Positions 17,565-38,169 of a stretch of 64,000 nucleotides of DNA are shown piece by piece (position 1 is the first letter of the stretch; each line of letters begins with the position of its first letter). The DNA comes from Proteinivorax tanatarense (lineage in GTDB: Bacteria; Bacillota; Proteinivoracia; Proteinivoracales; Proteinivoracaceae). The notes below the pieces were generated by a model. The model saw only the letters and a list, made by a program, of their open reading frames with translations. It was not told where the DNA came from and ran no database searches. The stretch is from the NCBI RefSeq assembly GCF_040267685.1, contig NZ_CP158367.1:186001-250000 (forward strand), given 5' to 3'. The translations under genes were made by a program, and so were the position numbers.

Positions 17565-17821
17565 AGAGCGTCGCCAAAGGCGATACCTCGCAAGAGGGGA
17601 CCACAGTGTTGTCCCGTCCCCAAATCAGCGACCCCAACATTGTCAATTGTCCATTGTAAATTGTAAATTCGCTTTTAAACTCCCCAAAAAACCTGCCACC
17701 TACTGGTTTAAGCCCTGACCAACTGTCCCCTGTCCAACTAAATTACTACAAAGGAGGTGATCAAAAAGCTAGGCGTAAAAAATAACAAAGGAGGCGAGAA
17801 CCACAACTAAAAGCTAAAAAC

Positions 17822-17990
17822 CAAAAAGCGCCAGGACTTTGCAGCTGCAAAGTTGACGAGGTGAAGGGTTATCGAGTTAATCGGCGGATACCTTCCGGAT
17901 TTTGTCACAGTCGTTATAAAACTTTTAAAACCTTAAGGTAACTTAAGGCACAAAGGAGTTTTAAGTGACAAAGAAAAAGTAAGTACCAAG
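17822..17990 (+). ncRNA. glmS ribozyme-riboswitch (GlcN6P-activated self-cleaving RNA)
   Basis: The sequence matches the glmS ribozyme core: AGCGCCAGGAC at 17,827, the pairing GACTTTGCAGC..GCAAAGTTGACGAGG, then GGGTTATCGAG and TCGGCGGATACCTTCC. It ends shortly before the glmS ribosome binding site, as in Bacillus. Glucosamine-6-phosphate triggers cleavage at its 5' edge and lowers glmS mRNA. Cleavage is expected just before AGCGCC, near 17,826-17,827. The 3' limit is approximate. Confidence 0.93.
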
Positions 17991-18004: not shown

Positions 18005-19819
18005 ATGTGTGGTATCGTAGGATATATCGGCCCTAAAAAGGCCTCAGAAATATTAATAGATGGATTGGCAAAGCTTGAATATAGAGGGTATGATTCCGCA
18101 GGAATCGCAATGTTAGAAAACGGCAAAGTGATAATGGAGAAAAAAGAAGGGCGTTTAAGTAAGCTAGCAGATATTGTGAAAAGCAAATATGACGCAAACA
18201 TAGGAATAGGACACACCCGTTGGGCAACCCACGGCAAGCCTTCTGACGAAAACAGTCATCCTCACTTTGACTGCAGCAAAAAAATTGCTGTAGTTCATAA
18301 TGGGATTATCGAAAACTTCCACCAGTTAAAAGAAGAACTAAAAGAAGACGGTCATCAGTTTGACTCAGAAACAGATACCGAGGTAATTCCTCATCTAATC
18401 GAAGAATATTATAACGGAGATATGCTTGAAGCACTACAAAAGACTATTAAGCGCTTAGATGGATCCTATGCTTTGGTAGTGATAAATCAAGACAAACCAG
18501 AAGAAATCTTTTGTGCTAGAAAAGATAGCCCACTAGTTATAGGCGTAGGGCAAGGAGAAAACTTTGTCGCTTCCGACATACCTGCCATAATACAACATAC
18601 AAAAGAAACCATAATCTTAGATGATGGAGAAATCGCCAAGATAACAAAAGACGCTGTCGAAATCATGGATTTACCGGGAAATAATGTGGAAAAAGAAATC
18701 TTAAAGGTAGATTGGGACGCTGATTCTGCGGAAAAAGAAGGATTCGATCATTTTATGTTAAAAGAAATCTACGAACAACCAACTGCCCTAAGAAACACCC
18801 TAAAAGACAAATTTGAAAGTGACAAAGTTAATCTTCCAGACTTAAATATAGATAGCGAGTACCTTAAAGGGGTTAACAAGATAGCTATAGTAGCGTGTGG
18901 TACTGCCTGGCATGCAGGCCTTGTAGGAAAACACCTATTTGAAACCTTATTAAGAATTCCTGTAGAAATCGATATAGCTTCAGAGTTCCGCTATAGAAAT
19001 CCACTTGTAGATGAAAAAACCCTCGTTATAGTAGTAAGTCAATCAGGGGAAACTGCAGATACCTTAGCAGCAATGAGAGACTCTCAGAAAAAAGGTGCCA
19101 AAGTACTTGCAGTAACCAACAACAAAGGAAGTTCCATAGCCAGGGAATCAGAGTTTATCTTTCATACAATAGCAGGTCCAGAGATCGCAGTAGCATCGAC
19201 AAAAGCCTACACCACTCAGCTTATGGGCTTTTATCTAATAACACTATACTTTGGCCAACTACTAGGCAAAGAAATGCCAAAAGAACTTTACGATGGATTA
19301 AAAGAAATTCCAGTGCTAGCTGACAAAGTTCTCCAAAACACAAAAGACCAGCTAGATAAAATAACCGCACCTTTTGACGGATGGGATAACTCCTTTTTCA
19401 TAGGAAGAGGAATGGACTGGTACGTAAGCCAGGAAGGTTCGCTAAAACTTAAAGAAATCTCATATATCCATGCCGAAGCCTATGCAGCTGGAGAGCTAAA
19501 ACACGGCACTCTAGCCCTTATAGAGCAAGACATCCCAGTTGTTGCAGTGGCAACCCAGCAAGACATCTACGATAAAACAGTAAGCAACATCAAAGAAGTA
19601 AAGGCAAGAGGCGGGTACGTCATAGCAGTAGTGCAAGAAGGGGACGAAGACATAAGCCACTCCGTAGATGAGGTAATAAAAATACCAAAAGTACCCTCCC
19701 TACTAACTCCAATACTATCAGTAATCCCACTACAACTGCTATCCTACAAAGAAGCAGTTAAAAGAGGCCAGGATGTTGATAAGCCGAGGAATCTAGCTAA
19801 GTCAGTAACAGTAGAGTAA
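18005..19819 (+). CDS. glmS: Glutamine-fructose-6-phosphate aminotransferase (isomerizing)
   Basis: It makes glucosamine-6-phosphate from fructose-6-phosphate and glutamine. The catalytic Cys is residue 2 in MCGIVGYIG. Two SIS domains follow (about 285-420 and 455-595), and the C-terminus is DKPRNLAKSVTVE. It has 604 residues. ATG follows AAGGAGG. The ribozyme upstream gives feedback control. The last codons form the classical TnsD recognition region of attTn7, and a mobile island begins 25 bp after the stop. Confidence 0.98.
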   Translation: MCGIVGYIGPKKASEILIDGLAKLEYRGYDSAGIAMLENGKVIMEKKEGRLSKLADIVKSKYDANIGIGHTRWATHGKPSDENSHPHFDCSKKIAVVHNGIIENFHQLKEELKEDGHQFDSETDTEVIPHLIEEYYNGDMLEALQKTIKRLDGSYALVVINQDKPEEIFCARKDSPLVIGVGQGENFVASDIPAIIQHTKETIILDDGEIAKITKDAVEIMDLPGNNVEKEILKVDWDADSAEKEGFDHFMLKEIYEQPTALRNTLKDKFESDKVNLPDLNIDSEYLKGVNKIAIVACGTAWHAGLVGKHLFETLLRIPVEIDIASEFRYRNPLVDEKTLVIVVSQSGETADTLAAMRDSQKKGAKVLAVTNNKGSSIARESEFIFHTIAGPEIAVASTKAYTTQLMGFYLITLYFGQLLGKEMPKELYDGLKEIPVLADKVLQNTKDQLDKITAPFDGWDNSFFIGRGMDWYVSQEGSLKLKEISYIHAEAYAAGELKHGTLALIEQDIPVVAVATQQDIYDKTVSNIKEVKARGGYVIAVVQEGDEDISHSVDEVIKIPKVPSLLTPILSVIPLQLLSYKEAVKRGQDVDKPRNLAKSVTVE

Positions 19820-19843
19820 TCCAGGTCACTCAAAAGCACCCAT
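19784..19843 (+). other. attTn7-type attachment site at the 3' end of glmS
   Basis: The glmS C-terminal codons for KPRNLAKSVTVE, bound by TnsD in Tn7 systems, are conserved. The first transposon terminus (TGT at 19,844) lies exactly 25 bp after the last base of the stop codon, the canonical Tn7 insertion distance. The five bases CCCAT at 19,839-19,843 recur as target duplications at 20,322-20,326, 53,280-53,284 and 53,981-53,985. Confidence 0.85.
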
Positions 19844-20321
19844 TGTCTCCCAATAAAAAAGTTTGTTCAAAAATAAAAAAGATTGTTTAAAACTCATAAA
19901 AAAGATTGTTCAAAACACAAATCCCTGTCGAATTCTGTAGGATATACACAGAAGACGGCAGGGGTTTATTATTAAAATTTTAGATAAAAGATATTGAAAA
20001 TCCCTATCGAAAAAAGCTGCTATGCCTTGCTGTTATAGTATTTATACAACTTTAACTTTAATAATAAAAGGAAAATATATCGAAGACCATATCGAAAAAA
20101 GCCTATAGAAAAATATGTCGAATTTTGGCGATGACGAACAAACTTTATTAACTTGAAGTAATTTACATTCTTACAGAAATTAGTGGATGAATGGAAGTAA
20201 TTAGGAAAAATTTTGAACAAACTTTATTTACTTGTAAAAAATGGGAAAAGTGGTGTGAGAGCAGATGTGATAGAGGGTTAGGGGTGGTTGGATTTTGAAC
20301 AAACTTTATTATAAATAGACA
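19844..20321 (+). mobile_element. Gene-less Tn7-like mini-element, unit 1
   Basis: The 478-bp unit starts TGTCTCCC and ends AATAGACA. The left part has three dense 21-bp TnsB-type sites (19,852-19,872; 19,872-19,892; 19,895-19,915; core AAAAAGTTTGTTCAAAA). The right part has three inverted, spaced sites GAACAAACTTTATT (20,136; 20,215; 20,297). This dense/spaced asymmetry is that of Tn7R and Tn7L. CCCAT flanks both sides. Between the ends lie a terminator-like hairpin (CCCTGTCGAATTCTGT with ACAGAAGACGGCAGGG) and AT-rich filler without a gene. Confidence 0.82.
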
Positions 20322-20326
20322 CCCAT

Positions 20327-20802
20327 TGTCTCCCAATAAAAAAGTTTGTTCAAAAATAAAAAAGATTGTTTAAAACTCATAAAAAAGATTGTTCAAAACA
20401 CAAATCCCTGTCGAATTATGTCGGTTATGCACAGAAGACGGCAGGGTTTTTTATTAAAAATATAGAGAAAAGATATTGAAAAGCTCTATCGAGGAAAGCT
20501 GGTATGCCTTGTTGTTATAGTATTTATACAACTATAACTTTAATAATAAAAGCAAAAAATATCGAAAACCATATCGAAAAAGCCTATAGAAAAAGATGTC
20601 CAATTTTGGCGATGACGAACAAACTTTATTAACTTGAAGTAATTTACATTCTTACAGAAATTAGTGGATGAATGGAAGTAATTAGGAAAAATTTTGAACA
20701 AACTTTATTCACTTGTAAAAAATGGGAAAAGTGGTGTGAGAGCAGATGTGATAAAGGGTTAGGGGTGGTTGGATTTTGAACAAACTTTATTATAAATAGA
20801 CA
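20327..20802 (+). mobile_element. Gene-less Tn7-like mini-element, unit 2
   Basis: The 476-bp unit has the same TGT...ACA ends and site layout as unit 1, and follows directly after the CCCAT duplication. It differs from unit 1 at scattered positions, for example TTATGCACA in the hairpin loop at 20,425-20,433. The flank after it is CCTAT, one change from CCCAT. Confidence 0.82.
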
Positions 20803-20807
20803 CCTAT

Positions 20808-21022
20808 TGAAAAATATGTCGAATTTTGGCGATGACGAACAAACTTTATTAACTTGAAGTAATTTACATTCTTACAGAAATTAGTGGATAGATGGAAGTA
20901 ATTAGGACAAATTTTGTACAAACTTTATTCACTTGTAAAAAATGGGAAAAGTGATGTGAGAGCAGATGTGATAGAGGGTTAGGGGTGGTTGGATTTTGAA
21001 CAAACTTTATTATAAATAGACA
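20808..21022 (+). mobile_element. Tn7-like mini-element unit 3, only the spaced-site end left
   Basis: It matches the last 215 bp of units 1 and 2, including three GAACAAACTTTATT-type sites (the middle one mutated to GTACAAAC) and the ACA terminus. The dense-site end is deleted. Following sequence to 21,190 is non-coding and G-rich with AGGGGTTAGG-like runs. Confidence 0.75.
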
Positions 21023-21192
21023 TAGTTAGGGGTTAGGAATTAGGTTTTAGGGGTAAGGGGGGAGTTTGGTATAAGTTTATGGTGTAAAAAATATTAATCC
21101 TTATTTATAAAAAGGTTTTTGTCTACAAAGGTAGAAATATAAAATAAGTAGTTGGAATAATTTTCTTTCAAAAGTTAGTAGGAGGTTTTAAT

Positions 21193-21804
21193 GTGGGAAA
21201 TAAAAACAATAAAAGGAAATACATAATAGCAGCGTCTGTTTTAGCTAGTTTAGCTGTTTTGTTTGTGTTGTTTTTGCAGTTTTTTAGCGGACAAGCAGCA
21301 AAGGGTGATATTCAAAACTATGATGACTACTGCTTAATTAAAGAGCAGTTAAAAGTTATAGAGTTTGCTAACGAAAACCCCGGCTTAAAACCTGACGAGC
21401 TAAAAACAGTAGTTGAACAAAAAGGTGTAACAGAAGTTTCAAAAGCTATGTACATTAGCCAAACGACTGAAATATACGCCGACGCTACAAACGATAGCAA
21501 CAAGCTAGGCATAATGGACAAAGATGAAAAAGTTAAAGTAACGGGAAAAGTAAAAAATGGCTGGTATCAAGTAGAATATGGCGATGATAAAGGGTATATA
21601 AACGGCGATTACCTAACCCCAAAAAAGCCAGAACCAAAACCAGAACCGGAACCAGAGCCTGAGCCAGAGCCAAAACCAGAGCCTGAACCCGAGCCTAAGC
21701 CACCGAGTAATGGTGGGGGTAACGGAGATAATCCACCGGGGTGGACTCCTATAGAGGATATCGAAGGCGGTGTAGAGAGTCCCTATGAGGATGACGATAA
21801 TTAA
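21193..21804 (+). CDS. Membrane-anchored SH3-domain protein with Pro-Glu repeat tail
   Basis: The 203-residue protein has an N-terminal transmembrane anchor (about residues 9-30) after basic NKRK. An SH3b domain follows (about 96-140; EIYADATNDSNKLGIMDKDEKVKVTGKVKNGWYQVEY, given here as EIYADATNDSNKLG and NGWYQVEY). The tail is a (PEPEPKPEP)n stretch (about 143-170) and a Gly/Asp-rich end. Start is GTG 21,193 after AGGAGG; the overlapping ATG at 21,191 opens an 11-codon frame only. It probably binds the cell wall. It is the first gene after the Tn7-like block. Confidence 0.7.
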   Translation: MGNKNNKRKYIIAASVLASLAVLFVLFLQFFSGQAAKGDIQNYDDYCLIKEQLKVIEFANENPGLKPDELKTVVEQKGVTEVSKAMYISQTTEIYADATNDSNKLGIMDKDEKVKVTGKVKNGWYQVEYGDDKGYINGDYLTPKKPEPKPEPEPEPEPEPKPEPEPEPKPPSNGGGNGDNPPGWTPIEDIEGGVESPYEDDDN

Positions 21805-22073
21805 AGGAGGTATTAAAAGTAAATGAGTAGATTAAAGCATGTTGGCTTATTTACATTGCTTTAACAATTCGGGCTAATTCTGTATAGTAAGTGCTGCTAG
21901 CAGCCAATTAAGCCTGATATTACTTTTAATTAGTGGGAAAGAAGGAGCGCTGACCTTTGTCCCCCTCCTCAAAAAAAGCAGATAAAACACAAATCCCTGT
22001 CGAATTCTGTCGGTTATCCACATTTTAATCCACAGAAGACGGCAGGGTTTTTATTAAAGTTATAGAGATAAAA

Positions 22074-22125
22074 CATCATAAATTAAAAAAGAGAAGGTAT
22101 TCCTTCTCTTTTCTAATTTATGATG
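22074..22125. terminator. Long perfect hairpin, covarying with a second copy
   Basis: CATCATAAATTA...AGAGAAGG pairs with CCTTCTCT...TAATTTATGATG. A related hairpin lies at 54,144-54,193, where the outer pair changed on both arms (CATCAT/ATGATG to CAACAT/ATGTTG). Both are followed by CTATAATAGG and the 37-bp repeat. It could serve as a bidirectional terminator or an RNA element. Confidence 0.6.
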
Positions 22126-22130
22126 CTATA

Positions 22131-22243
22131 ATAGGCCGCATTTAAAGTAGCGGAACACTTAGAAGATATAGGCCGCTCTTAAAGTGGCGGAACACTTAGA
22201 AGATATAGGTCGCTCTTAAAAGTGGCGAAACACTTTGAATTAT
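22131..22243. repeat. Three tandem 37-bp repeats
   Basis: Units start at 22,131, 22,168 and 22,205, each beginning ATAGGYCGC and containing GCGGAACACTTAGAAGAT; the third is degenerate. A single copy occurs at 54,196-54,240. There are no spacers, so this is not a CRISPR array. Confidence 0.75.
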
Positions 22244-22997
22244 GACCATAGTTTACCAGATATGAATAATTTGTCAATATGTGCCTACTTCAGTTCAAGG
22301 AGGAGAGTAGACTACTTAATAGAAAAAAACCCGTAACGAGCAAGAAATTACCTTTATCTAAATATTCAAACATAAACACTTCATTTCTGTAACATAACTT
22401 TAATAATTTTTTTTTGGATTTTTCGTCATACTTTGAAGACTTTTACCCTGTATAATACATATAGAGAATCATTTAAGAAGAAAGCAGTTGACCCTATACC
22501 TCAATTTTGATTGTTTTATATAATTTAAGGGTATGCCCCAAATTTTTGGTTTAGAAAAGTCAAACCCTTGACTAACTACTGTAAGGTATTTAAAAAGCTA
22601 TAACCTTTGCTTGGTCAATTTGGTCTAAATTGTAAAATGAATTTAAATTTGCCATTAAAAATATGATTAACCTAGATTGCGTAAGATATTTTTAGATGTA
22701 GGCTATATGCCAACTTTTGCTACAGCTAAATCAAACAACATTAAAACACAAACACTTCATTTCAAAGAAGGGTAGTTTAGGAGCATTTAGCCATCTACTC
22801 CTCCTTGAACTGAAGTTTCTGTGCCTCTTATAAATTTACTATAAAAATTTATGACTAAAGTTAACCCAATTGGAGCTATTGGCACATAAACTCCTTGAAA
22901 CGAAGTAGTTTTTGTTTTTAAAACTCTTATAAGTACCTATAACGAGCAAGAAAAACCCGTAACGAGCAAGAAATTACTTTTATCTGAATATTCGTAA

Positions 22998-23204
22998 CCT
23001 ACTTCTCTTCCACCTTATGCAAAAGAGGAAGTAAAGGTAGAATTAAGTTTTAATTATAGAGATTATAAAGTCGATGCAAAAAATAATACTCTGTCTAAGC
23101 AATGGGTCAAAAAGAACCCTTATAATAAAAAACAAAGTAATAAATCAAACGATGATTCCACTATGGAAGATGATACTATGGAAAAATCCACTGTGGAAAA
23201 TTGA
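22998..23204 (+). pseudogene. 3' fragment of an unidentified gene
   Basis: An open frame of 68 codons without a start (stop TAA at 22,995-22,997 lies just upstream) ends with TGA 23,202-23,204. It reads PTSLPPYAKEEVKVELSF... and ends in a repeated acidic tail (STMED, DTMEK, STVEN). Its 5' side is the end of the 43-bp repeat, so the gene was probably cut by the insertion that brought that repeat. Family not recognised. Confidence 0.4.
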
Positions 23205-23277
23205 ACTGATTTAGAGGATTATTCGAAACTTTCGAGAAGAAGTTTGATAGAAAAAAATAGTGAAAGGGGTGTTGGTT

Positions 23278-23526
23278 TTGGCTAAAGTCAATATCTTATG
23301 TCCTGATTTAATTGAAGAGTATGGACTGGATGAAAGTGAAATTATCAAAGAATTAGGGAAGGTCAATGCTGAAAAAGATGTTGAAGGTATGATTAAAGGC
23401 CTACCTGAAAATTTAATGTATACGTTAGTTTATAGAGTTAAAAGCCAAAAAATATTTCTGACAAATATAATAAAGGCTGAGAAAGTAATAAAGATGGATA
23501 ATTCAAAGCTTTTCGCACATATGTAA
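23278..23526 (+). CDS. Small hypothetical protein
   Basis: The best start is TTG 23,278 with AAGGGGTG 8 nt upstream (an in-frame GTG at 23,260 lies before the ribosome binding site). It gives 82 residues (LAKVNILCPDLIEEYGLDES...), mixed alpha/beta, no membrane segment, no recognised domain. It ends at a strong bidirectional terminator shared with the convergent gene. Confidence 0.5.
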   Translation: MAKVNILCPDLIEEYGLDESEIIKELGKVNAEKDVEGMIKGLPENLMYTLVYRVKSQKIFLTNIIKAEKVIKMDNSKLFAHM

Positions 23527-23530
23527 AATA

Positions 23531-23572
23531 CATTAAATGACTATGAGCGCTGGTCGCCATAGTCATTTAATG
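23531..23572. terminator. Bidirectional terminator between convergent small genes
   Basis: A perfect 15-bp inverted repeat CATTAAATGACTATG/CATAGTCATTTAATG with a 12-nt loop lies between the + gene ending at 23,526 and the - gene whose stop (23,541-23,543) is inside the stem. Confidence 0.8.
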
Positions 23573-23837
23573 TTTCAACTGCGTGCAGCAAATCATTTTT
23601 AATAGCTTTATCTTTAATGTGACTGGTTAATTTCAATAAATCTCTAATGAGTGCATTTTTATCGATATAATAATAGTCTTCTCCAGCATTTAAAACTCTC
23701 GTTTTTAAATCAAAATTCAAAAAAAGATAATAATAAGAGTCTAAGCTATCATCATGGCCAAATAAAATAATAACATCAGAATCATCAAGGGTTATAGGTT
23801 CTATTTCTTCAAATCTCTCAAAAACTGTTTTTCTCAT
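23541..23837 (-). CDS. Small hypothetical protein
   Basis: 98 residues from ATG 23,837, which has GGAGAGG 6 nt upstream; the longer frame to 23,861 has no better start. The product is acidic, with a beta-rich N-terminal half (DVIILFGHDDSLDSYYYLFLNF) read here as DVIILFGHDDS and YYYLFLNF, and a helical C-terminus. It is the last of three co-directional minus-strand genes (24,548 to 23,541). Family not recognised. Confidence 0.5.
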   Translation of the reverse strand: MRKTVFERFEEIEPITLDDSDVIILFGHDDSLDSYYYLFLNFDLKTRVLNAGEDYYYIDKNALIRDLLKLTSHIKDKAIKNDLLHAVETLNDYGDQRS

Positions 23838-23851
23838 TTTCCTCTCCTCGC

Positions 23852-24154
23852 CTACATACAATGCAAATTATTCTTTAAGAGCTTTAGCATGATGTGTAAA
23901 TCGTAAATGATATGGTTTACATCATTGTGGTCTTCCACCCTAAGTTCACTAACATTTTCAAGCAGGTACATTATTTCATTTACAAACTCTGTTACGTCTT
24001 CAGCTTCTGAAAAGTATTCAGCTAAGTCAACAAAATAATTGTCAAAGTTGAGTTGATAAGAAAAGTGTCCATCACCTTTTGACACTTTGTAACAAAAGAT
24101 ACCATTGTGAGAAAAATTATTCACCATTTCTTCTTTAGTAATGGGTTGATACAA
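23852..24154 (-). CDS. Small hypothetical protein
   Basis: 100 residues starting at TTG 24,154 behind AAGGTGATG. It is acidic and mostly helical in the second half. It lies between the four-helix-bundle gene and the 98-residue gene, spaced 13-14 nt from each, so the three form an operon. No domain recognised. Confidence 0.5.
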   Translation of the reverse strand: MYQPITKEEMVNNFSHNGIFCYKVSKGDGHFSYQLNFDNYFVDLAEYFSEAEDVTEFVNEIMYLLENVSELRVEDHNDVNHIIYDLHIMLKLLKNNLHCM

Positions 24155-24167
24155 CTACATCACCTTC

Positions 24168-24548
24168 CTACGCGTCTTTGTTTATTTCTTTTTTTATCGT
24201 TCTCATATAACCGTAAAGCATTTTAGTAATTTCTTTGATGTTTTCATCGTACTCTTTATATTTGGCCTCGCTAATATAATTCTGATTATAAGCACTTTCT
24301 AGGTAGTAGTCAGCTTCTCTAGCGGAACCAAATGCGTTAGCAGCATAGTTGAACTGTTTTCTCAAAAAAGGACTTGCTGTCCCCTCAGCAAGATTTGCGG
24401 CAATTGAATCAGTAGCTTTAGGAAGCTGTTTTTTTAATATATCCTGTTCGTGATGGGGGAAGGTTTTAGCTACCTTATTGATTTGTAGATGAAATAATCT
24501 TGCTTTTTGAAAAACCTTTAGCTTACGAAAATCTTTGATATGTTTCAT
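24168..24548 (-). CDS. Four-helix-bundle protein of the 23S rRNA IVS family
   Basis: 127 residues from ATG 24,548 (AAGGAG upstream). The family hallmarks are visible: FRKLKVFQKARLFHLQI, FP..E, LKKQLPKATDSIAANLAEG, and FGSAREADYYLE. The family (PF05635 type) forms pentameric four-helix bundles. It includes products of rRNA intervening sequences and Avd accessory proteins of diversity-generating retroelements. No reverse transcriptase or variable repeat is nearby, so no retroelement is implied. Role unknown. Confidence 0.85.
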   Translation of the reverse strand: MKHIKDFRKLKVFQKARLFHLQINKVAKTFPHHEQDILKKQLPKATDSIAANLAEGTASPFLRKQFNYAANAFGSAREADYYLESAYNQNYISEAKYKEYDENIKEITKMLYGYMRTIKKEINKDA

Positions 24549-24748
24549 TTCGAAACAACTCCTTTTTTTGTTTTTTTGTCTTGTATTTTTAACATAACAC
24601 ATAAATTTCAAAAGTAAGGAGAAAACAAAATTTTTTTATGCTTTTTAAATAAAATTTGTTATTCAAAACTAAGAGTATTTAGAAATGAATAGTGAACAAA
24701 AAAGGTAATAAAAACTTGAATCATGCTCACTCTTTGGTTATAACATTT

Positions 24749-24809
24749 ATGAACTGTAAAGGTTCTTAGAAATAAAAGTAGGAATTTTAATGAACTAAAA
24801 TGAACTAAA
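24749..24809. repeat. ATGAACTRWA direct repeats ahead of parM, possible partition site
   Basis: ATGAACTGTA (24,749), ATGAACTAAA (24,790) and ATGAACTAAA (24,800) lie just upstream of the ParM-like gene. Type II partition loci keep the ParR-binding repeats in this position. Three short copies are suggestive only. Confidence 0.35.
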
Positions 24810-24821
24810 GGAGATGATAGC

Positions 24822-25763
24822 ATGAAAGAACAGGTTGAATTTATTGGCATCGACAAAGGCAATGGCTATATTAAAGCAGGAAGTGAAATTATCTTTCCAG
24901 CAGGGCTTAGTGTAACAGAAGGTGAGCCGCTTTCTAACTATAGGCTTTTGAAGTACAATGGTAAGCAGTATAACATTGGAGATTCTCGGCTGAAGTTTAC
25001 AAAAGATAAAGCCAATGAAGCTTTTTTAGTTTTAGCCTTGGCAGCAATCGCCATGAGATTAGAGAAGGTAAATAAGCAAAAAGGTGATGTTGTGTTAGGA
25101 TTGGGGGCGCCAATTTCTGATTATGGTTTTTTGAAAAACACATACACCAACTACTTTACAAAAAATAATCTTAATTTTGCCTTTAACGGAAAAAAGTACG
25201 AAATTGATATTAAAAAAGTTTACTGTTTTCCACAAGGGATTGCAGGTTTTCTGCACAATTATCATAATTTTGGCAGCGAGTACAGTTATTTTAATCTGTT
25301 AGACTTTGGAAATATCACCCTCGATGCTGTAACCATAGGAAAAGATAAAAAGCCTATATTGGACAGTGCAATAAGCCTAGAATATGGCATGACAAGCTTA
25401 GTAAAAAGAATTCAAAAAAAGGTAAATCATACTTTAGGCATTAGCTTAGCTGAAGAGCAAGTAGAGCTAGCTCTGACTGAGAAAACTAGCGTGTTTTTTA
25501 ATGAAAGGATTCAAGAAATTATAGAAGAAGCCAAAAAAGACTTTATTGAAGATAGCTTCAAAGAGCTGCATGAAAATGGCTTTAAATTACAAGGCTCAAT
25601 AAATGTATTGATGGGTGGCGGGGCGAAAATAGTTAATGCGAGCATTGATGCAAACAATCACCAGAAAACCATTGGATACGCAGAAGTGATGCCAGATGAG
25701 CAATTCGCTAATTCTTTAGGTTTTGAGAAGCTGGCAAAACAAGCATACTTGCAAGGTAGGTAA
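24822..25763 (+). CDS. parM: ParM-like actin-family plasmid segregation ATPase
   Basis: The 313-residue protein begins with the actin-fold phosphate-1 loop IGIDKGNGYIKA, has a second loop LLDFGNITLDAV near residue 163, and an adenosine motif INVLMGGGAKIV near residue 259. It matches the ParM/StbA/Alp actin-like family, which polymerises into filaments that push plasmid copies apart. ATG follows AAAGGAG. It overlaps no gene and is followed after 3 nt by a small ParR-like gene. This is the clearest sign of plasmid origin for the island. Confidence 0.85.
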   Translation: MKEQVEFIGIDKGNGYIKAGSEIIFPAGLSVTEGEPLSNYRLLKYNGKQYNIGDSRLKFTKDKANEAFLVLALAAIAMRLEKVNKQKGDVVLGLGAPISDYGFLKNTYTNYFTKNNLNFAFNGKKYEIDIKKVYCFPQGIAGFLHNYHNFGSEYSYFNLLDFGNITLDAVTIGKDKKPILDSAISLEYGMTSLVKRIQKKVNHTLGISLAEEQVELALTEKTSVFFNERIQEIIEEAKKDFIEDSFKELHENGFKLQGSINVLMGGGAKIVNASIDANNHQKTIGYAEVMPDEQFANSLGFEKLAKQAYLQGR

Positions 25764-25766
25764 AGC

Positions 25767-26039
25767 ATGGGTTATAGAAGAATCAACCTATCCTTTGACA
25801 GCAGAAAAGATTCGCATAATAGGTCCTATGAAATGTTAAAGAACAAAGGTAGAGAAAAAACAGACTTTATCGTAAAAACTATTCTAAATGACAAAGAAAA
25901 TGAAGACATTGAGCTGATAAAAGCAGCTTTGCGGGAAGTGCTAAATGAAAGCAATATAGTCAAGGAAAAACAGAAGGAAAACAAAGATAGTTCACAATCA
26001 GTTCCTGATGATGTGTTTGACATATTTGATAACATGTAG
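25767..26039 (+). CDS. ParR-like adaptor, probable ribbon-helix-helix protein
   Basis: 90 residues directly downstream of parM. The N-terminal YRRINLSFDSRKDSHNRSYE resembles a ribbon-helix-helix strand-helix start, and the acidic/hydrophobic tail PDDVFDIFDNM resembles the ParM-binding tail of ParR proteins. In type II partition systems ParR binds the centromere and caps ParM filaments. The assignment relies on position, size and architecture more than on sequence identity. Confidence 0.65.
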   Translation: MGYRRINLSFDSRKDSHNRSYEMLKNKGREKTDFIVKTILNDKENEDIELIKAALREVLNESNIVKEKQKENKDSSQSVPDDVFDIFDNM

Positions 26040-26092
26040 AAAGATGCAGTGGGCTATTAATAGCCCACTGCATCTTTCTACATACATGTTAT
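26029..26092. terminator. Very long palindrome ending the parMR operon
   Basis: The arms run from ATAACATGTAGAAAGATGCA through GTGGGCTAT and are repeated in inverse from 26,060 to 26,092, with only a 4-nt insertion. The ParR stop codon (TAG 26,037-26,039) lies within the arm. Two direct repeats AATAACACGG follow at 26,098-26,117. It could act as a terminator or be part of a centromere. Confidence 0.65.
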
Positions 26093-26252
26093 ACCAAAAT
26101 AACACGGAATAACACGGAATAAGATGGTATTAAGAGAAAAAAGCAGATATAAAATAAAAATAGGGTCTTTTAAGGGAATGAGCTTGATTTTGCTCGAAAA
26201 TAGCTTATAATAAAAATAAAACTAAAAAATTAGGAGGTTATGTAAATACAAA

Positions 26253-26750
26253 ATGAGAAAACTGACTAAGAAGGAGAAAGAGTTACTATCTATCCATCAC
26301 CTTCAAAATAATAAAGGAAGATGGACAAAGGAAGAAGAAGAATTTTTATTTGAGAAAGTAAACGAACTTAAAAATAAAATGTCTATTAAAGAGGCGTTTG
26401 CATTTGTAGGCAAGACTCTTAACAGGGGCTCCCAAGCCGTACAAGGGCGATACTATCGTATAAATAAAAAGTTCAAAATGGGAAATGATGGAATTGAATT
26501 TGAGAATGAGGGTAAGGATAACCACATCATAAAAGCTTTGCAAAATACTGAAAGAAACATTGTAAAGGCTATAAAAGATGCTGAAAAAAACGTTATAAAA
26601 GCTAGCATATTTGAGGAGAGAGACGAAACGGTAGACCATTCAATGGAAAGCATAAAAAGGATAGAAAATGAATCAAAAAGAATTCGAAAAACCTTAGATG
26701 AAATTGATGAAGATGTTTCTGCTTGGAAGTCTAAGTGGGGAAAACGTTAA
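26253..26750 (+). CDS. Myb/SANT-like DNA-binding protein (RsfA-type)
   Basis: The 165-residue protein has an N-terminal Myb-like helix-turn-helix (about residues 15-65). It contains GRWTKEEEEFLFEKV and GSQAVQGRYYRI, as in RsfA-type prespore regulators and phage/plasmid Myb proteins. The C-terminal two thirds is a charged coiled-coil with heptad-like repeats (IIKALQNTERNIVKAIKDAE). ATG follows TAGGAGG. A role as plasmid regulator is inferred. Confidence 0.7.
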   Translation: MRKLTKKEKELLSIHHLQNNKGRWTKEEEEFLFEKVNELKNKMSIKEAFAFVGKTLNRGSQAVQGRYYRINKKFKMGNDGIEFENEGKDNHIIKALQNTERNIVKAIKDAEKNVIKASIFEERDETVDHSMESIKRIENESKRIRKTLDEIDEDVSAWKSKWGKR

Positions 26751-26850
26751 ATCGGAATTTAGAAATGCGATTCTTAAATAGAAGAGGGAGAAGGAAATGT
26801 GTATAGAAATGGCACCTGAGTAGGAGGGAAATGCTTTTATTTGCAGAAAA

Positions 26851-26866
26851 AGCCACTTAAGTGGCT
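26851..26866. promoter_or_regulatory. 16-bp perfect palindrome, possible operator
   Basis: AGCCACTTAAGTGGCT lies between the Myb-like gene and the 294-residue gene. A related half-site TTTAAGTGGAC follows at 26,876. It is a plausible operator for a dimeric regulator such as the neighbouring Myb-like protein. The rest of 26,751-26,994 shows nothing else apart from AAGGAGG before the next start. Confidence 0.4.
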
Positions 26867-26994
26867 ATGAAACCGTTTAAGTGGACAAAAACCAATTTTG
26901 AACTTAAAATCGAGAAAATCTTGAAAGGATATGTATAAAGACAGTACAATTCATGTAGTGATGTTGGAATTAATATAAATAAGGAGGATTTTAA

Positions 26995-27879
26995 ATGACA
27001 AGCAAAGCAGAGATTTTACAGGAGAACTTTTTAATCATAAGAGCAAATTTTGCATTAAAATACGATTTGGCATCTAAACAGGAACTTAGAGAGGCAGGTG
27101 CGCCTGTTTTTGATACGGAAACTCTTAAGCAAAAGATAGAAGAGTTTTTAGAAGATATTAAAAATGACAAAGAGGCTTTTTTAGCGGTAGAAGATATAAT
27201 TTTCGAAAATGCCTGGATTGATGAGATTTTTCTAGAAACAATCCGATTTTACCCGGAATCGTTTTTAGAAAAATATAAAGGGAGGAACAAAAATTTTCTA
27301 CGGGAAAAGATTTACCCCAGAATTTTTGAAGTCATGCGCAAGCTAAACAGCGGAAAAGAGGAAGATTACCTACATTTTAAAGATGAGGATATTGAAGAAA
27401 ATCATGAACGGAAAAGAAGTTCCGATTATTGGCTGTCGAGAAATTACTATCTGGCAGCAAAAATTTCTGATGAAAAGTGGGGCAAAAAAATTTTCGATGA
27501 TGCTTATAGGACTTATCAGCAGAAAAAATTATTGGAAAACAGCAAATTAAGTTATTATGAGCTTTTCAGAAAAGCTAGTACAACATATGCAAAAATTCTA
27601 ACTATTAACGAGTTATGGCAAAAAGTCGAGGTAGGCAACAGAGTGGACTATTGCCCGTTAACCAATCATAAAGATGATATTTTGAGTATTGCTGAAGATA
27701 TTTTAAAGTCCGGAGATGAACTATTGATTGAAGAAATCAGCAACTTACTCTTGCCGATTTTTATGATTAAAGACGCTAAGATTCAAGATTTAAAAAACGA
27801 TATTGTCAAAATTTATTGGCAATTTAAAGAGAATGAATCTGTGAAATCGAATTTGTCGATTTTGCAAACTATGTATTAG
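26995..27879 (+). CDS. Hypothetical helical protein
   Basis: 294 residues, start ATG after AAGGAGG. It is charged and predicted almost wholly helical, with no membrane segment and no catalytic motif I recognise. A YWLSRNYYLAAKIS stretch near residue 142 and a C-terminal ISNLLLPIFMIKD are its most distinctive parts. It lies in the plasmid-like part of the island. A weak hairpin with G-T pairs at 27,898-27,930 may be its terminator. Confidence 0.55.
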   Translation: MTSKAEILQENFLIIRANFALKYDLASKQELREAGAPVFDTETLKQKIEEFLEDIKNDKEAFLAVEDIIFENAWIDEIFLETIRFYPESFLEKYKGRNKNFLREKIYPRIFEVMRKLNSGKEEDYLHFKDEDIEENHERKRSSDYWLSRNYYLAAKISDEKWGKKIFDDAYRTYQQKKLLENSKLSYYELFRKASTTYAKILTINELWQKVEVGNRVDYCPLTNHKDDILSIAEDILKSGDELLIEEISNLLLPIFMIKDAKIQDLKNDIVKIYWQFKENESVKSNLSILQTMY

Positions 27880-27998
27880 ATAATTATTAACTTTCATTAA
27901 GGGTGCTACTAACGAGAGTAGTGCTCTTTTTGATTAAAAATTAAAAGCGTTTACATGTAAAATTAATAATGATAATATCACTTGTAAGGGGGGGGAAC

Positions 27999-28211
27999 AT
28001 GGAAATTACTAAAAAAGATATTGAAGACTTTCAAGAAAACCTTTCGCTGGCATTGGTTAAAATGTCGCAAGGCAAACTAGATAAAGAAGGAGCTGATAGC
28101 CTTGCCAGCTCTGCTGTAAAAAAGGTAGATTTCTCGCCGGATTCAGCTCTAGCACACAAAGGTGTGAACTGGTATGCTAAGAGGATTTTGGAGACGATAG
28201 GAATTTTGTAG
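27999..28211 (+). CDS. Small hypothetical protein
   Basis: ATG 27,999 follows GGGGGG at 7 nt and gives 70 residues (MEITKKDIEDFQENLSLALV...). It is helical and soluble. Family not recognised. Confidence 0.5.
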   Translation: MEITKKDIEDFQENLSLALVKMSQGKLDKEGADSLASSAVKKVDFSPDSALAHKGVNWYAKRILETIGIL

Positions 28212-28812
28212 TGCGACTCCTAGGTATTCAGATAAGCATCTACTATTCTTACCCATGGAACAAGATGTCGGATGTAGTTATTTTCGTATTTTAACACTCA
28301 ACTTTTTACTATAGGGGTTTATAAAAGGGAGAGTGAATTGCAAGGTGTGTAGAGTTGATGTTTAGTCTTAACAAGCATAATGCAAAAAGAGTAACAATAA
28401 GACCTCTTCCTTAAAGTCAGGTTCTTATTGTTACTCTTTTTGCTAATTTTTTAAATAAGTAGCTCCCCCTGAGTTTGAGTATAAAGAAAACTGGCATATA
28501 AATATAGGAGGACATGATAATAGTACTAGGAAAAACTCTGGTATTCTAATTCTCTGAGTATAATTTTTCACCAATTTAGCCTCCACATGTTCCAGGTCTT
28601 TTTTAAAACCTATTTCTGATAAGATAATCTAGGTAATTTCAATACGTGTTTATATATTTTTTTAACCTTTAGTTTTGAAAGTAATTAGTGATTAATAAGA
28701 GAGAATTTAGGAAAAGAGCTGAAAAAATTGAAACTTGGAAGGGAAGTTAACTTATATACGAGAATATAAAATATAAATCCAATACTTTTTAGAAAGGAAG
28801 GAAGGAATTAAA
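28212..28812. other. 601-bp spacer with one hairpin of the island's AGAGTAACAATAAGA family
   Basis: Apart from the hairpin at 28,382-28,443 I see no gene or RNA. AAAGGAAGGAAGG before 28,813 is the ribosome binding site of the next gene. Confidence 0.6.
28382..28443. repeat. Palindromic island repeat, copy 1
   Basis: Arms GCAAAAAGAGTAACAATAAG and its inverse flank a loop with TTAAAGTCAGG. The motif is found five times between 28 and 35.5 kb and nowhere else in the window. Confidence 0.85.
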
Positions 28813-29859
28813 TTGAATATAACAGAACTGACTACTAATGATACCATTTTTTCCTTGGGACTTTATAATGCAGTAACCATAGAGCGGATGTTTAATGAAA
28901 GTAAAATTGTCTTCGATTATGAGGAGGAAAAACTGGGTATTGATGGTTTATACGTAATGTATTCTGATGAAATGAATGAACTTTTAAAGTTTATGAACGA
29001 CAGGCAAAAGTTACATGGTTTTTGTCCTTACTGCAATAAGGAACTAGTATTTAATTTGACATCGGTAGAAATTAATAGTGAATTATTGGAAAGAAAGGTT
29101 TGTGTGTTAAAATATTCTGCTATTGGTCCTGAAGAATATGATTCAATGGAACGCCATAAAGATTATAAATGCAATGAGCGCATAGAATTATTAAAGAACT
29201 ATACATATTTTAATAAAAAAGCTATATGCACTTTTGATAGTAGCCATATAATGAACTTTTTCTTTAAATTGGATATTTCTTATACTGGTGCAAAGGATTC
29301 AGTTACATTAACAAAAGTAGGGCAAAGTCCATCTTATACAGAAATGAACAGACATAAACACAAGAAGTTTTCAAAAGTACTGAAACAAATAAATAGCTAC
29401 GATGACTATGTAAAAGGGGATAATTTATTCTCACATGATGTTGGGGTGGGCGCCTTTGTTTATCTTAGAAGGATACTTGAAAAGATATTACTATTTAAAT
29501 TTAATGACTATACTAAGCATAAGGGCGAAAAAAAAGCCACTAGTATTCATGAATTTAAAAACATGGAGATGGAGAAAAAAATAAAACTATTAAAAGGATA
29601 TTTACCAAAAGAATTTGATAACCTAAAACAAGTTTATGGAATTTTGAGTTCAGGAATTCATAATTTAGAAGAAGATAGTTGCAAAGGATATTATCCAGTG
29701 CTAAAGACAGCTATTGATTTAATTTTACTTGAACAAAAAGAAAGCATGGAGAAAGAAAAACTAAAGAACAAAAACAAATCTGCTATTAATAAAATAACAC
29801 CAGAAGTAGGTGAAAAGGCAGATAAAGAACTAAAAAAGTTGGCTGGGAGTAAAAAGTGA
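28813..29859 (+). CDS. Hypothetical protein with zinc-ribbon-like cysteines and possible HEPN-like C-terminus
   Basis: 348 residues from TTG 28,813. The middle contains GFCPYCNKELVF (about residues 73-84) and later single Cys/His positions (YKCNE, ICTFDSSH), compatible with a degenerate zinc ribbon. The C-terminal 130 residues (YLRRILEKILLFKF ... VYGILSSGIHNLEED) resemble DUF4145/HEPN-type helical domains, but no R-x4-6-H RNase motif is seen. It stands alone between two palindromic repeats beside a restriction-modification pair. A defence role is only a guess. Confidence 0.45.
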   Translation: MNITELTTNDTIFSLGLYNAVTIERMFNESKIVFDYEEEKLGIDGLYVMYSDEMNELLKFMNDRQKLHGFCPYCNKELVFNLTSVEINSELLERKVCVLKYSAIGPEEYDSMERHKDYKCNERIELLKNYTYFNKKAICTFDSSHIMNFFFKLDISYTGAKDSVTLTKVGQSPSYTEMNRHKHKKFSKVLKQINSYDDYVKGDNLFSHDVGVGAFVYLRRILEKILLFKFNDYTKHKGEKKATSIHEFKNMEMEKKIKLLKGYLPKEFDNLKQVYGILSSGIHNLEEDSCKGYYPVLKTAIDLILLEQKESMEKEKLKNKNKSAINKITPEVGEKADKELKKLAGSKK

Positions 29860-29990
29860 GAAATAAACTAAATCTTATAAGCTATTGTGTTAATTTGGAT
29901 GAATAAGATAATATAAAAGCGAGTACAACACCTTATTAAATAAACCTGTTCTTGTATTATAGTAACAAGAAAGTGACAAACAGGTATAAT

Positions 29991-30046
29991 GCAAAAAGAG
30001 TAACAATAAGCCCTTCTCTCTAAAGTCAGGTTCTTATTGTTACTCT
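29991..30046. repeat. Palindromic island repeat, copy 2
   Basis: AGAGTAACAATAAG at 29,997 pairs with its inverse ending at 30,046; the loop again has TAAAGTCAGG. It sits between the 348-residue gene and the methyltransferase gene. Confidence 0.85.
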
Positions 30047-30220
30047 ACTAACATTGCGTTTTTTATAAATATAAATCTAATGGACAAACTTTTTTTAAAA
30101 GCATGTTTTAATATTCGTAAACAGAAATAAAAATCCGTTTTACAAGAGGCAAAATAGTATGTAAAAAAAACAGATGTTTGATATACTAGGTATATACTTA
30201 TTAAGAAAAGAGGGTAAAAC

Positions 30221-31054
30221 ATGACAAAGAATAAACTAGTACAACCACCCTTGAAATGGGTGGGGGGTAAAAGACAACTTATTTCAGAAATCGAAAAATC
30301 CCTCCCAAATAAATGGTCAACATATTACGAACCGTTTGTAGGTGGTGGGGCTGTATTATTTCACTTGCAGCCTAAAAAAGCTGTTATTAATGATGTAAAT
30401 GATGAGTTAATTAATTTTTATAGTACTGTAAAAGAAAATGTTGAAGAATTAATCAATGAATTAAAAAAATTTAAGAATAAAGAGGACTTTTTTTATGAGG
30501 TGCGTGGTTGGGATAGGAGTCCAGCATACAAGGATTTATCTAGTATAAAAAAGGCTGCTCGTTTACACTTTTTAAATAAGACTTGTTATAATGGTTTATA
30601 CAGGGTTAATAATGCGGGGGAGTTTAATGCCCCTTTTGGTAAATATAAAAATCCTGATTTTGTAAATGAGTCTGTATTGAGAGCAATAAACATTTTTTTA
30701 AATAAAAGCAACGTAAGAATATGTAATTGTGACTATCAAGATGCTTTGCGAGGGATAAGAAAGGGAGCTTTTGTTTATTTTGACCCTCCTTATGACCCTG
30801 TTTCATCTAGCGCAAGTTTTACAGGATATTCTCAAGGAGGTTTTGATAGAAATGAGCAAATAAGGCTAAAAGAAATTTGTGATAAATTAAATAAGAAAGG
30901 AGTCAAGTTTCTGCTTTCTAACTCAGCAACAGATTTTATAAAGGAATTATATAAGGAGTATGACATTAAAATAGTTAAAGCGAGAAGAAGTGTAAACTCT
31001 GTTGCTTCTAAGAGGGGGGAAGTTGAGGAAATACTTGTGAAGAATTATGACTAA
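30221..31054 (+). CDS. DNA adenine-N6 methyltransferase, Dam/D12 class
   Basis: 277 residues with the D12-class signatures: the AdoMet-binding PPLKWVGGKRQLI at residues 6-18, YYEPFVGGGAVLF near 38-50, and the catalytic FDPPYDP near residue 187. Relatives methylate GATC or related sites. It overlaps the following nuclease gene by 8 nt, so this is the modification half of a type II restriction-modification system. The recognition sequence cannot be read from the protein with certainty. ATG lies 8 nt after AGAGGG. Confidence 0.92.
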   Translation: MTKNKLVQPPLKWVGGKRQLISEIEKSLPNKWSTYYEPFVGGGAVLFHLQPKKAVINDVNDELINFYSTVKENVEELINELKKFKNKEDFFYEVRGWDRSPAYKDLSSIKKAARLHFLNKTCYNGLYRVNNAGEFNAPFGKYKNPDFVNESVLRAINIFLNKSNVRICNCDYQDALRGIRKGAFVYFDPPYDPVSSSASFTGYSQGGFDRNEQIRLKEICDKLNKKGVKFLLSNSATDFIKELYKEYDIKIVKARRSVNSVASKRGEVEEILVKNYD

Positions 31055-32324
31055 AGTAAATAAAGGTTGGGAAGAGTTGTTTGAGAGGCACAATATTTTG
31101 TATAAGGTAGATACCGAAGGATATTATAAAGTAACGTCAAAAGCAATAAATAAGGTCAGAGAAGCTAGGCTAATGACAAAATTTGACCACAAGAATAACC
31201 TTCCGGAAATTTTTCAACAGAACAACTTGTCTATTTTGCCTATTACTAGGGGCAGTTATGTTATATCAAAATTTGATGCCTATAAAGAGTTACACTATAA
31301 CAAAGACTTAGATACCGCTGAAATAGAGTTCCCATCTGAGATTGAGAGTATTGATTTTAGTAATATTTATAGTGAAGCAACGGCTTTAAATTGCGCCTAT
31401 TCTACAGGAATAATAAATCTTTTTTTAAATGAAGAACATACACTGCCAACTATCAGCGGAAGAATGAGTTCAAGCAGTTTTAGTTTTAATATTAGAAATA
31501 TTGAAACTAATAACAAATTTCCAGTTGATGTTCAGAACAGTCAAGTTGAAATTGATGGAGGATATGAAGGTAGAAACAAGCTTATGCTCGTAGAAGCTAA
31601 GAACTCTGTGTCAAAGGATTTTCTTGTAAGACAACTATACTATCCATATAGATTGTGGAGACAGAAAGTAAGTAAAGAAGTAGTTCCAGTATTTATGACG
31701 TTCTCTAATGATGTATGGAGTTTTTTTGAGTACAAGTTTACAAACCCCTTGGAATATAATTCACTTGTACTTGTAAAACAAAGAAACTACATGATAGCAC
31801 CAGAAAAAATAAACTTAAATGATATAAAAAATGTCTTAGAAAATGTGACCATTATAAAAGAACCAAAAGTTTCATTTCCGCAAGCTGATTCATTTAAAAG
31901 AGTTATCAATTTGTTAGAGATGCTAATGGAAAAAGATTTGGATAGGGATTACTTGACACATACACTAGATGTTCACCCTAGGCAAACTAATTATTATACG
32001 AGCGCAGCTATGTACTTAGGTTTAATAGAAAAGAAAAGAGAAGATGGTGTGACTCTTTACTACGTTACAGAAGAAGGTAAAAAAATTATGAATATGACAT
32101 ATAAAAAGAAGTATTTATCAATAATAGAGAAGATACTTAGGAATCCTTCATTTAACGAGTCCTTTAGGTGTTTTTTGAAAGACGGGTATCCACCAGATAA
32201 CAAAAAGATTGTTGAAATAATGAAAAAAACGAATATCTATAAAGTTGAAAAAGATAGTACCTTTTCCAGAAGAGCTACAACAGTAAAATCCTGGTTAGAT
32301 TGGATTTTAAGCTTACAAGAATAA
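31047..32324 (+). CDS. Type II restriction endonuclease (PD-(D/E)XK type)
   Basis: 425 residues, overlapping the methyltransferase gene by 8 nt. A probable nuclease centre EIDGGYEGRNKLMLVEAKNS fits the D-x(n)-E-x-K pattern (about residues 172-190). A C-terminal winged-helix-like part (about 285-425; HPRQTNYYTSAAMYLGL) may bind DNA. It resembles type II enzymes that pair with D12 methylases. The combination protects the host while cutting unmethylated DNA, and helps keep the element in the cell. Confidence 0.8.
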   Translation: MTKVNKGWEELFERHNILYKVDTEGYYKVTSKAINKVREARLMTKFDHKNNLPEIFQQNNLSILPITRGSYVISKFDAYKELHYNKDLDTAEIEFPSEIESIDFSNIYSEATALNCAYSTGIINLFLNEEHTLPTISGRMSSSSFSFNIRNIETNNKFPVDVQNSQVEIDGGYEGRNKLMLVEAKNSVSKDFLVRQLYYPYRLWRQKVSKEVVPVFMTFSNDVWSFFEYKFTNPLEYNSLVLVKQRNYMIAPEKINLNDIKNVLENVTIIKEPKVSFPQADSFKRVINLLEMLMEKDLDRDYLTHTLDVHPRQTNYYTSAAMYLGLIEKKREDGVTLYYVTEEGKKIMNMTYKKKYLSIIEKILRNPSFNESFRCFLKDGYPPDNKKIVEIMKKTNIYKVEKDSTFSRRATTVKSWLDWILSLQE

Positions 32325-32472
32325 AGGAAATGTAAATATTCGCTTTCAATTCTAGTAATGTAGAAGTTTAGAAAATAAGACAGTATAATATCTAAATTAA
32401 AAGCAAATATGGTTCCATTTACATAGACTTATTTATAATTCCCTAAAACAAGAGCACAAACCAAAGCATAAT

Positions 32473-32533
32473 GCAAAAAGAGTAACAATAAGACCCTCCC
32501 TTAAAGTCAAGTTCTTATTGTTACTCTTTTTTT
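32473..32533. terminator. Palindromic island repeat, copy 3, between convergent genes
   Basis: The stem GCAAAAAGAGTAACAATAAG and its inverse ends in T7, between the restriction enzyme gene (+) and the primase gene (-). This copy is well placed to act as a bidirectional terminator. Confidence 0.8.
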
Positions 32534-32535
32534 AC

Positions 32536-34479: not shown

Positions 34480-35020
34480 TTTATACTCCTCCTTCTCAGA
34501 AGGAGCCACTAAATCTACTTAAATCACTCGATGATGAAAACATTTTTATTCGCAATATACTGTTGTTAAACGGTTAAATAGCTTTTCTTTTCCACTATTA
34601 GTAACTCCGTTTTTGAAATTGTTTAGAATTTATGTTCTGAATTACGCCTTGTACCATTTTAAAGAAGAGTAACAATAAGAACCTGACTTAGGGGAGGCTT
34701 TTATTGTTACTCCTTTCTACATCATGGTTGCTATTGGTAGCTCTCATAGGAAGCTAGATAAATGTTTTTCTCACTGTCTTTAAATTAAAACCGATATATA
34801 GTTATTTCAGGACTATATTAATTCGGACCATAATATATTTGCATAATAAACACCACCCTTTATTTAAATTTAAAATCAACTCAAACTCTGTATTAACTCT
34901 GTATTTTTAACATAACACATTATATTTTGAATCATATCCTAGGGAGGATAGAACTAAAAAAGTTTGAAAATAAGCTAGTCTTCTTTTAAAATTTGCTTAC
35001 CAAATTTAAGGAGGAATTAA
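34480..35020. other. 541-bp spacer, possible origin region of the plasmid-like part
   Basis: It lies between the divergent primase and SpoVS-like genes, and holds palindromic repeat copy 4. A 21-bp motif at 34,900-34,920 (TATTTTTAACATAACACA core) occurs identically at 24,582-24,602, upstream of the four-helix-bundle gene. No iteron array is evident. The rest is AT-rich. Confidence 0.4.
34666..34712. repeat. Palindromic island repeat, copy 4 (opposite orientation)
   Basis: AGAGTAACAATAAGAACCTG pairs imperfectly with TTTTATTGTTACTC; compared with copies 1-3 it is the reverse complement. Confidence 0.8.
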
Positions 35021-35290
35021 ATGCAAGACAAAGTCTTGAAAGTTGCAGAAACTACAAATTTAAACGCTTTAGTTAGAGTGATGAAAAGACAGATTAAAGA
35101 GAAAAGTTTTGTCGAAATTCAAAGTATAGGTCAATGTTCTAGCTATAAAGCCGTAAAAGCACTAATTAAAATTAGAGAATATTATAGGGATATAGAAAAA
35201 GAAGTGGAGCTAAAGCCTGAGTATGTGGAAATAAAAACAGAGGGGGGTAAAATAAAAACTGCTATAAAATGGAATATTAAAACTAACTAA
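35021..35290 (+). CDS. SpoVS-like protein (Alba-like fold)
   Basis: 89 residues from ATG after AAGGAGG. The pattern VLKVAETTNLNALVRVMKRQ then FVEIQSIGQCSSYKAVKALI matches the stage V sporulation protein S family, whose chromosomal members read VLKVSAKSNPNSVAGALA and EIQAIGAGALNQAVKA. SpoVS affects sporulation and septum formation and has a nucleic-acid-binding Alba-like fold. Here it lies beside a plasmid replication gene. A strong palindromic terminator (35,285-35,330) covers its stop codon. Confidence 0.85.
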   Translation: MQDKVLKVAETTNLNALVRVMKRQIKEKSFVEIQSIGQCSSYKAVKALIKIREYYRDIEKEVELKPEYVEIKTEGGKIKTAIKWNIKTN

Positions 35291-35330
35291 CATAAGACAC
35301 ATGGATAATCCATGTGTCTTATGTTAGTTA
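35285..35330. terminator. Palindromic terminator of the SpoVS-like gene
   Basis: AACTAACATAAGACACATGG pairs perfectly with its inverse around a short centre. The stop codon TAA 35,288-35,290 lies in the left arm. Confidence 0.75.
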
Positions 35331-38143: not shown

Positions 38144-38169
38144 TAAAAACTGTGATATAATATTATTAA

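Follow-up and report, generated by a model that had tools for sequence, protein, structure and literature searches.

Gene-less mini-Tn7 units downstream of glmS as the probable attachment site of plasmid-like elements with a TnsA predicted to be nuclease-dead

The gene-less mini-Tn7 units that are stacked downstream of glmS in Proteinivorax tanatarense are best explained as an R-L attachment site belonging to a plasmid-like element, which carries tnsABCD outside of these ends and was copied into attTn7 as a cointegrate (probability roughly 0.8). The element probably copies itself whole into the chromosome, rather than moving by cut-and-paste. We analyzed a stretch of 64,000 nt (the window), and the coordinates of its features are collected in Table 1. 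The original prediction for this locus overlooked that the whole 1,179-bp array of units is repeated, with the tnsABCD genes between both copies.

Table 1. Features of the glmS region and of the integrated element in the window.
Feature	Position	Strand	Evidence or remark
glmS ribozyme	17816..17973	+	Rfam RF00234, 115.7 bits; 5' of glmS
glmS, 3' end = TnsD target (attTn7)	18005..19819	+	ORF
Outer left target-site duplication CCCAT	19839..19843	.	Sequence; same as 53981-53985
Mini-Tn7 unit 1, 478 bp	19844..20321	+	TGT...ACA ends, 3 dense + 3 spaced sites; right-end sites face glmS
Intrinsic terminator hairpin in unit 1 right end, 3' of glmS	19917..19970	+	RNA fold -26.4 kcal/mol, z -7.2; five further minis have comparable hairpins
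CCCAT separating units 1 and 2	20322..20326	.	Sequence
Mini-Tn7 unit 2, 476 bp	20327..20802	+	94.6% identity to unit 1; sites
Unit 3, left-end half only	20803..21022	+	97% identity to unit 1 positions 259-478
Plasmid-like donor backbone, 31,779 bp	21023..52801	+	Between identical arrays; plasmid-type genes
IVP/Avd-like four-helix protein	24168..24611	-	PF05635; found in 7/8 backbones
ParM-like actin, partition protein	24822..25763	+	ALP_N/MreB-like_C; PHROG 691 partition protein
Possible ParR-like partner of actin	25767..26039	+	Position; homologue beside actin in C. bovifaecis
Type II restriction-modification pair, cargo	30221..32324	+	
Primase-like replication protein	32536..34509	-	PHROG primase 1.5e-6; G095 backbone homologue 56% identity
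IS21 element within backbone	35646..37962	+	
tnsA, predicted nuclease-dead from residues	39674..40525	+	E63Q, D114S, Q130S, K132 kept
tnsB, DDE transposase, catalytic residues conserved (D, D, E)	40470..42659	+	E 7e-112 to Tn7 TnsB 7pik
tnsC, AAA+ regulator	42652..44310	+	AAA_22/TniB
tnsD, target selector	44276..46138	+	PF15978 5e-98
Serine recombinase, candidate cointegrate resolvase	46762..47451	+	PF00239
Second identical three-unit array	52802..53980	+	1,179 bp, 0 mismatches vs 19844-21022
Outer right target-site duplication CCCAT	53981..53985	.	Sequence
Older, diverged mini, right end	53986..54249	+	Three sites; 86% to unit 1
Decayed mini remnant, terminates in AATAGACA	55441..55637	+	
Decayed right-end/terminator remnant 5' of selD	57113..57238	+	75-76% identity

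Full TGT...ACA ends with three dense and three widely spaced sites had been predicted for units 1 and 2, and the site coordinates confirmed this. Both units span TGTCTCCC...AATAGACA. In unit 1 the dense predicted TnsB-type sites on the glmS side are at 19855, 19875, and 19898, and the far-end sites, about 80 bp apart and in opposite orientation to the dense trio, are at 20136, 20215, and 20297. The site motif had 34 matches in the window versus 2.7 expected from shuffling. As predicted, CCCAT precedes unit 1 as well as unit 2; the first copy begins 20 bp past the glmS stop codon, and the insertion point is 24 bp 3' of this codon. It also held that the units are gene-less and stacked at attTn7, and an action of TnsABCD on them is plausible. 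Only units 1 and 2 proved to be complete; unit 3 comprises just a left-end half, and the CCTAT at its junction has the appearance of an internal deletion.

A terminator hairpin is found just inside the right end of each mini, with z-scores of -2.7 to -7.6 across the seven that were folded. The predicted hairpin is positioned such that it would terminate glmS transcription after insertion. All matches to the unit in the 3.09-Mb genome were confined to one locus, at glmS. The last 1.55 kb of glmS itself (18250-19819) showed 97–99% identity to the congener G001, compared to about 75% upstream and about 87% for selD. This sharp mosaic edge at glmS suggests a recent interspecies exchange of the glmS-attTn7 segment. 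A large block of imperfect direct repeats (60601-63582, 82–95% identity) is present close to the right end of the window.

The array pair is flanked by CCCAT on both outer sides, while the two inner flanks differ from each other. The homologues of TnsA, TnsB, TnsC, and TnsD, which form one operon, are located outside of the R-L ends: these ends are only 478 bp apart, and tnsA follows 18.7 kb beyond. The integrated segment harbors replication and partition genes (primase-like protein, partition actin), as is characteristic of an integrative plasmid. No conjugation genes were recognised among the scanned proteins of the window backbone. The inner mini flanks (21023-21037 and 52785-52801) are conserved across species, and each is in part an inverted copy of the other (TAGTTAGG... 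/ ...CCTAACTA). In Bacilli these flanks read TAGAAG / CTTCTA; the backbone sequence past the left end of the mini is TAGTTA in Clostridia and TAGAAGG in Bacilli, and in several elements an inverted match of the left-end flank precedes the right end. Since the flank on the backbone side is conserved, the mini occupies a conserved position in the backbone, like an attachment site. A HEARO RNA (RF02033, 132 bits) was found at 46247-46481, immediately 3' of tnsD and with no obvious HNH nuclease gene adjoining, and an MqsA/SocA-type antitoxin-like gene (38546-39553), of which the G281 region contains a homologue (48%), lies 5' of tnsA. Furthermore, 117 bp of the backbone (21956-22072) match the region between glmS and selD in G001 (L022:9924-10040) with 100% identity, suggesting that the element may have passed through the chromosome of this congener.

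The catalytic residues of Tn7 TnsA are E63, D114, and K132. Alignment of the window TnsA to Tn7 TnsA (1f1z) revealed replacement of E63 by Q, of D114 by S, and of Q130 by S, while K132 is retained. A peptide-pattern scan of genome contigs with TnsB yielded no relatives, and a scan by TnsA alignment yielded 80 loci. The TnsA comparison comprised 85 rows, with three Acinetobacter rows left out. Within it, the 36 Bacillota TnsA proteins lacking D114 form one clade (support 100/99), in which this position is occupied by T (21), S (10), or N (5). E63Q was present in 19 of the 36 proteins and K132 in all of them; most have also lost a third acid (Q169 in the window, column 201). The dN/dS values for tnsA were 0.05–0.11 in twelve within-clade pairs. 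Judged from these ratios, tnsA of the clade is under purifying selection despite the lost nuclease residues. TnsA proteins of the clade are predicted to lack nuclease activity. Residue E140 (numbering of the window TnsA) is always acidic in the clade, compared to about half of the other TnsA proteins, which leaves a small chance of a shifted active site in clade TnsA. Three TnsA proteins from Acinetobacter indicus, lwoffii, and tandoii (L118, L120, L121) also have S at the position of D114 and show the canonical layout beside glmS. Membership of these proteins in the same clade was ruled out: the loss is independent, the layout is canonical, and no duplication is present.

We tested for the mini-backbone-mini structure in loci lacking D114 that have glmS and tnsA on one contig and about 60 kb or more available. 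The structure was present in all seven testable clade loci at glmS, including the window, and the two copies were 99.7–100% identical. Flanking copies of 1,438/1,440 bp (99.7%) enclose 29.1 kb in G095, copies of 341/342 bp (99.7%) enclose 31.0 kb in G281, and copies of 342 bp (99.7%) enclose 46.3 kb in Thermoanaerobacter wiegelii. Copies with 100% identity were found in Clostridium bovifaecis (501 bp, 38.6 kb between), Terrilactibacillus tamarindi (475 bp, 40.1 kb), and Metabacillus bambusae (464 bp, 53.2 kb). Exact outer 5-bp duplications are present in four of the seven loci, namely CCCAT in the window, GTTAT in G281, GTTTT in Terrilactibacillus, and GTACA in Metabacillus. The outer duplications of T. 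wiegelii are offset by one base, and C. bovifaecis lacks an outer 5-bp duplication. In G095 the duplication extends about 1 kb beyond the left end of the mini, which the simple model leaves unexplained. Mesobacillus boroniphilus has a mini between glmS and tnsA on a contig that lacks the far side. On a Firmicutes FC7 draft contig (G415:C5, L231-L234) a diverged pair (83%) surrounds tnsABCD, and several stacked minis are present; this element with a TnsA predicted to be nuclease-dead reads as adjoining the 3' end of rpsI, not glmS. Stacked older minis also occur in T. wiegelii and G095. In the related genomes we saw neither units at random sites only nor a loss of the conserved site spacing, the two outcomes that had been named as speaking against the original prediction.

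A duplicated glmS-proximal segment was found in none of 11 canonical and none of three Acinetobacter loci, with less than 20 kb available for two of these controls. The start of tnsA was at a distance of about 1.1 kb or less from glmS in 13 of 14 control loci and of 3 kb in G160. All eight backbones encode a primase-like protein and/or a ParM-like actin, the primases of G281 and T. wiegelii being recognized only through homology to the DnaG-like primase of C. bovifaecis. A serine or tyrosine recombinase is encoded in seven of the eight backbones. Queries for primase, actin, recombinase, and the IVP/Avd-like protein found nothing in the first 24–40 kb of 10 control loci, except for one match of 30 residues. 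A resolvase specific to the window was considered as the cause of the structure and was rejected; the relatives have serine or tyrosine recombinases, and none was detected in G095.

Solo minis were found in two genomes. G446, a single-contig genome congeneric with G281, carries a mini of 342 bp, which starts 29 bp past the last glmS codon and shows 77% identity to the G281 mini, and G001 has a shortened mini 3' of glmS. No TnsB match was obtained in G446 or G001, in a search that included no positive genome; in a separate search this query hit 16 of 16 other genomes. The solo mini of G001 is flanked by two 94% identical copies of a 320-bp segment from downstream of glmS (L022:8186-8506, 8907-9219). 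Among plasmid records we found no free circular member of the family, and no TnsA lacking D114 was recognized; two TnsA proteins from Bacillota plasmids were checked residue by residue and both were canonical, and almost all matches to plasmid records were relatives with less than 60% identity. Five draft contigs, each about 60 kb long, showed no terminal overlaps that would indicate circularity.

We propose the following series of events, for which we infer a replicative reaction, a free circle, and excision. TnsD would recognize the 3' end of glmS, and TnsB would cut the 3' ends of the mini and join them at attTn7. The TnsA protein of the clade, having lost its catalytic acid or acids, would leave the 5' ends unfreed. 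Replication through the mini would then insert the whole circle, resulting in a cointegrate with the order [mini]-backbone-[mini] and the 5-bp duplication on the outside; the window would represent this cointegrate before resolution. Recombination between the minis, by RecA or an encoded recombinase, would set the circle free, with one mini staying behind in the chromosome. A further round would again insert beside glmS, so that scars stack with the youngest closest to glmS. Repeated insertion at attTn7 would thus be due to successive rounds of integration and excision. CCCAT between the units implies that the array arose at a chromosomal attTn7 and reached the circle afterwards. That the transposed unit in the window would be a three-unit array counts against the model, as chromosome and circle must then have undergone an exchange beforehand. 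The offset outer duplications of T. wiegelii, their absence in C. bovifaecis, and the lack of a free circular member among the plasmid records likewise count against it. The proposed reaction resembles experimental results: for a type I-F transposon with TnsA-D90A, more than 95% of long reads showed duplicated mini-transposons on either side of the donor backbone (PMC8188705), and point mutants of Tn7 TnsA are described as leading to cointegrates (May and Craig 1996, as cited in PMC8649781 and PMC11406308). It seems fairly likely that such integrative plasmids, which use Tn7 as integrase, are spread throughout the Bacillota, with an ancient clade of nuclease-dead TnsA, replicative entry at attTn7 and at one or more further sites, duplication of the mini at entry, and a scar at exit.

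An identical mini-backbone-mini layout would result if a single crossover joined a plasmid bearing a mini or array to a mini residing at attTn7, where such minis are common, and TnsABCD would then not be involved in the last step. The resident, older minis are diverged (77–95% identity), however, and the copies should therefore differ to the same extent, but they are nearly identical in all seven glmS loci. The structure also tracks the clade lacking D114 and is missing from canonical loci. We thus regard homologous integration as unlikely for these loci, while it may apply to FC7 with its diverged pair. Movement of the 34 kb from 19844 to 53980 as one composite transposon, in which the arrays would serve as long terminal repeats, would fit the canonical orientation of the outer R and L ends, the CCCAT on either side, and the orientation of tnsA-D, which is as in Tn7. 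Near-identical copies in every glmS locus would then demand constant homogenization, and excision would still require TnsA; a circle is the better fit for the genes of plasmid replication and partition and for the backbone flank that is conserved beside the mini. This makes a composite transposon improbable.

The original prediction took the units for MITE-like passengers, which would belong to a separate full-length Tn7-like element, in line with their lack of genes, their full ends, and their position at attTn7. This part of the prediction was not supported. The genome yielded no full-length R-tnsABCD-L element whose own ends directly enclose the tns genes; MITEs are non-autonomous copies that are dispersed in the genome, but all copies are at one locus. 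The array flanks the tnsABCD backbone on both sides, and likewise in every testable relative the mini is the flanking repeat of a tns-bearing backbone. We therefore give this explanation very little weight. An assembler could have been misled by the shared 1.2-kb repeat to join the chromosome and a plasmid with the same array, but single-contig genomes of unrelated species (the window, G095, G281, T. wiegelii, C. bovifaecis) agree in structure although their repeats are different, and such an artefact appears hardly credible.

The replicative entry of a plasmid-like element, which we favor, shares many features with Tn7: homologues of TnsA-D, asymmetric TnsB-type sites, TGT...ACA ends, a 5-bp duplication, and insertion immediately past glmS with the right end closest to the gene. 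In canonical elements tnsA adjoins glmS, whereas in the window the tns genes are outside of the R-L ends on a plasmid-like backbone. Unlike cut-and-paste Tn7, the element has a TnsA without E63 and D114 and would have been inserted as a cointegrate. Engineered Tn7 and type I-F CAST systems with dead TnsA likewise combine a live TnsB with a backbone flanked by duplicated mini-transposons, but they are laboratory mutants, whereas the clade is natural and ancient and its tnsA is maintained by selection. Tn5053/Tn402 and type V-K CAST elements are also replicative and form cointegrates, and elements of the Tn5053 type carry a resolvase as the window carries a recombinase; they have no tnsA. The present element retains tnsA, its TnsD targets glmS, and its transposase genes lie beyond the ends. 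ICEs and integrative plasmids, some of which (e.g., TnGBS) use DDE transposases, likewise have a plasmid-like backbone that enters the chromosome via a recombinase, but here integration duplicates the attachment element. An analogy only can be drawn to solo LTRs of retroelements, with identical flanks at insertion and solo scars after recombination, while chemistry and ancestry are unrelated. Tn7-like elements without tnsA but with a resolvase were already described (PMC8649781). In the open-access literature we found no earlier account of a natural clade with a retained dead TnsA, of tns genes located beyond R-L ends, or of plasmids for which a mini-Tn7 serves as attachment site and scar.

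If the proposed model is true, these elements would be the natural counterpart of the laboratory result that killing TnsA switches Tn7 from cut-and-paste to copy-in. Evolution would have fixed this switch and retained TnsA as a non-cutting subunit, and roles of TnsA besides cutting would become testable. The model would account for gene-less pairs of Tn7 ends and for stacked minis at glmS. It would also mean that tns genes need not be located inside the ends, and that surveys based on element boundaries would mis-draw such elements. Finally, the elements would represent compact natural systems for the insertion of whole circles at a safe chromosomal site.
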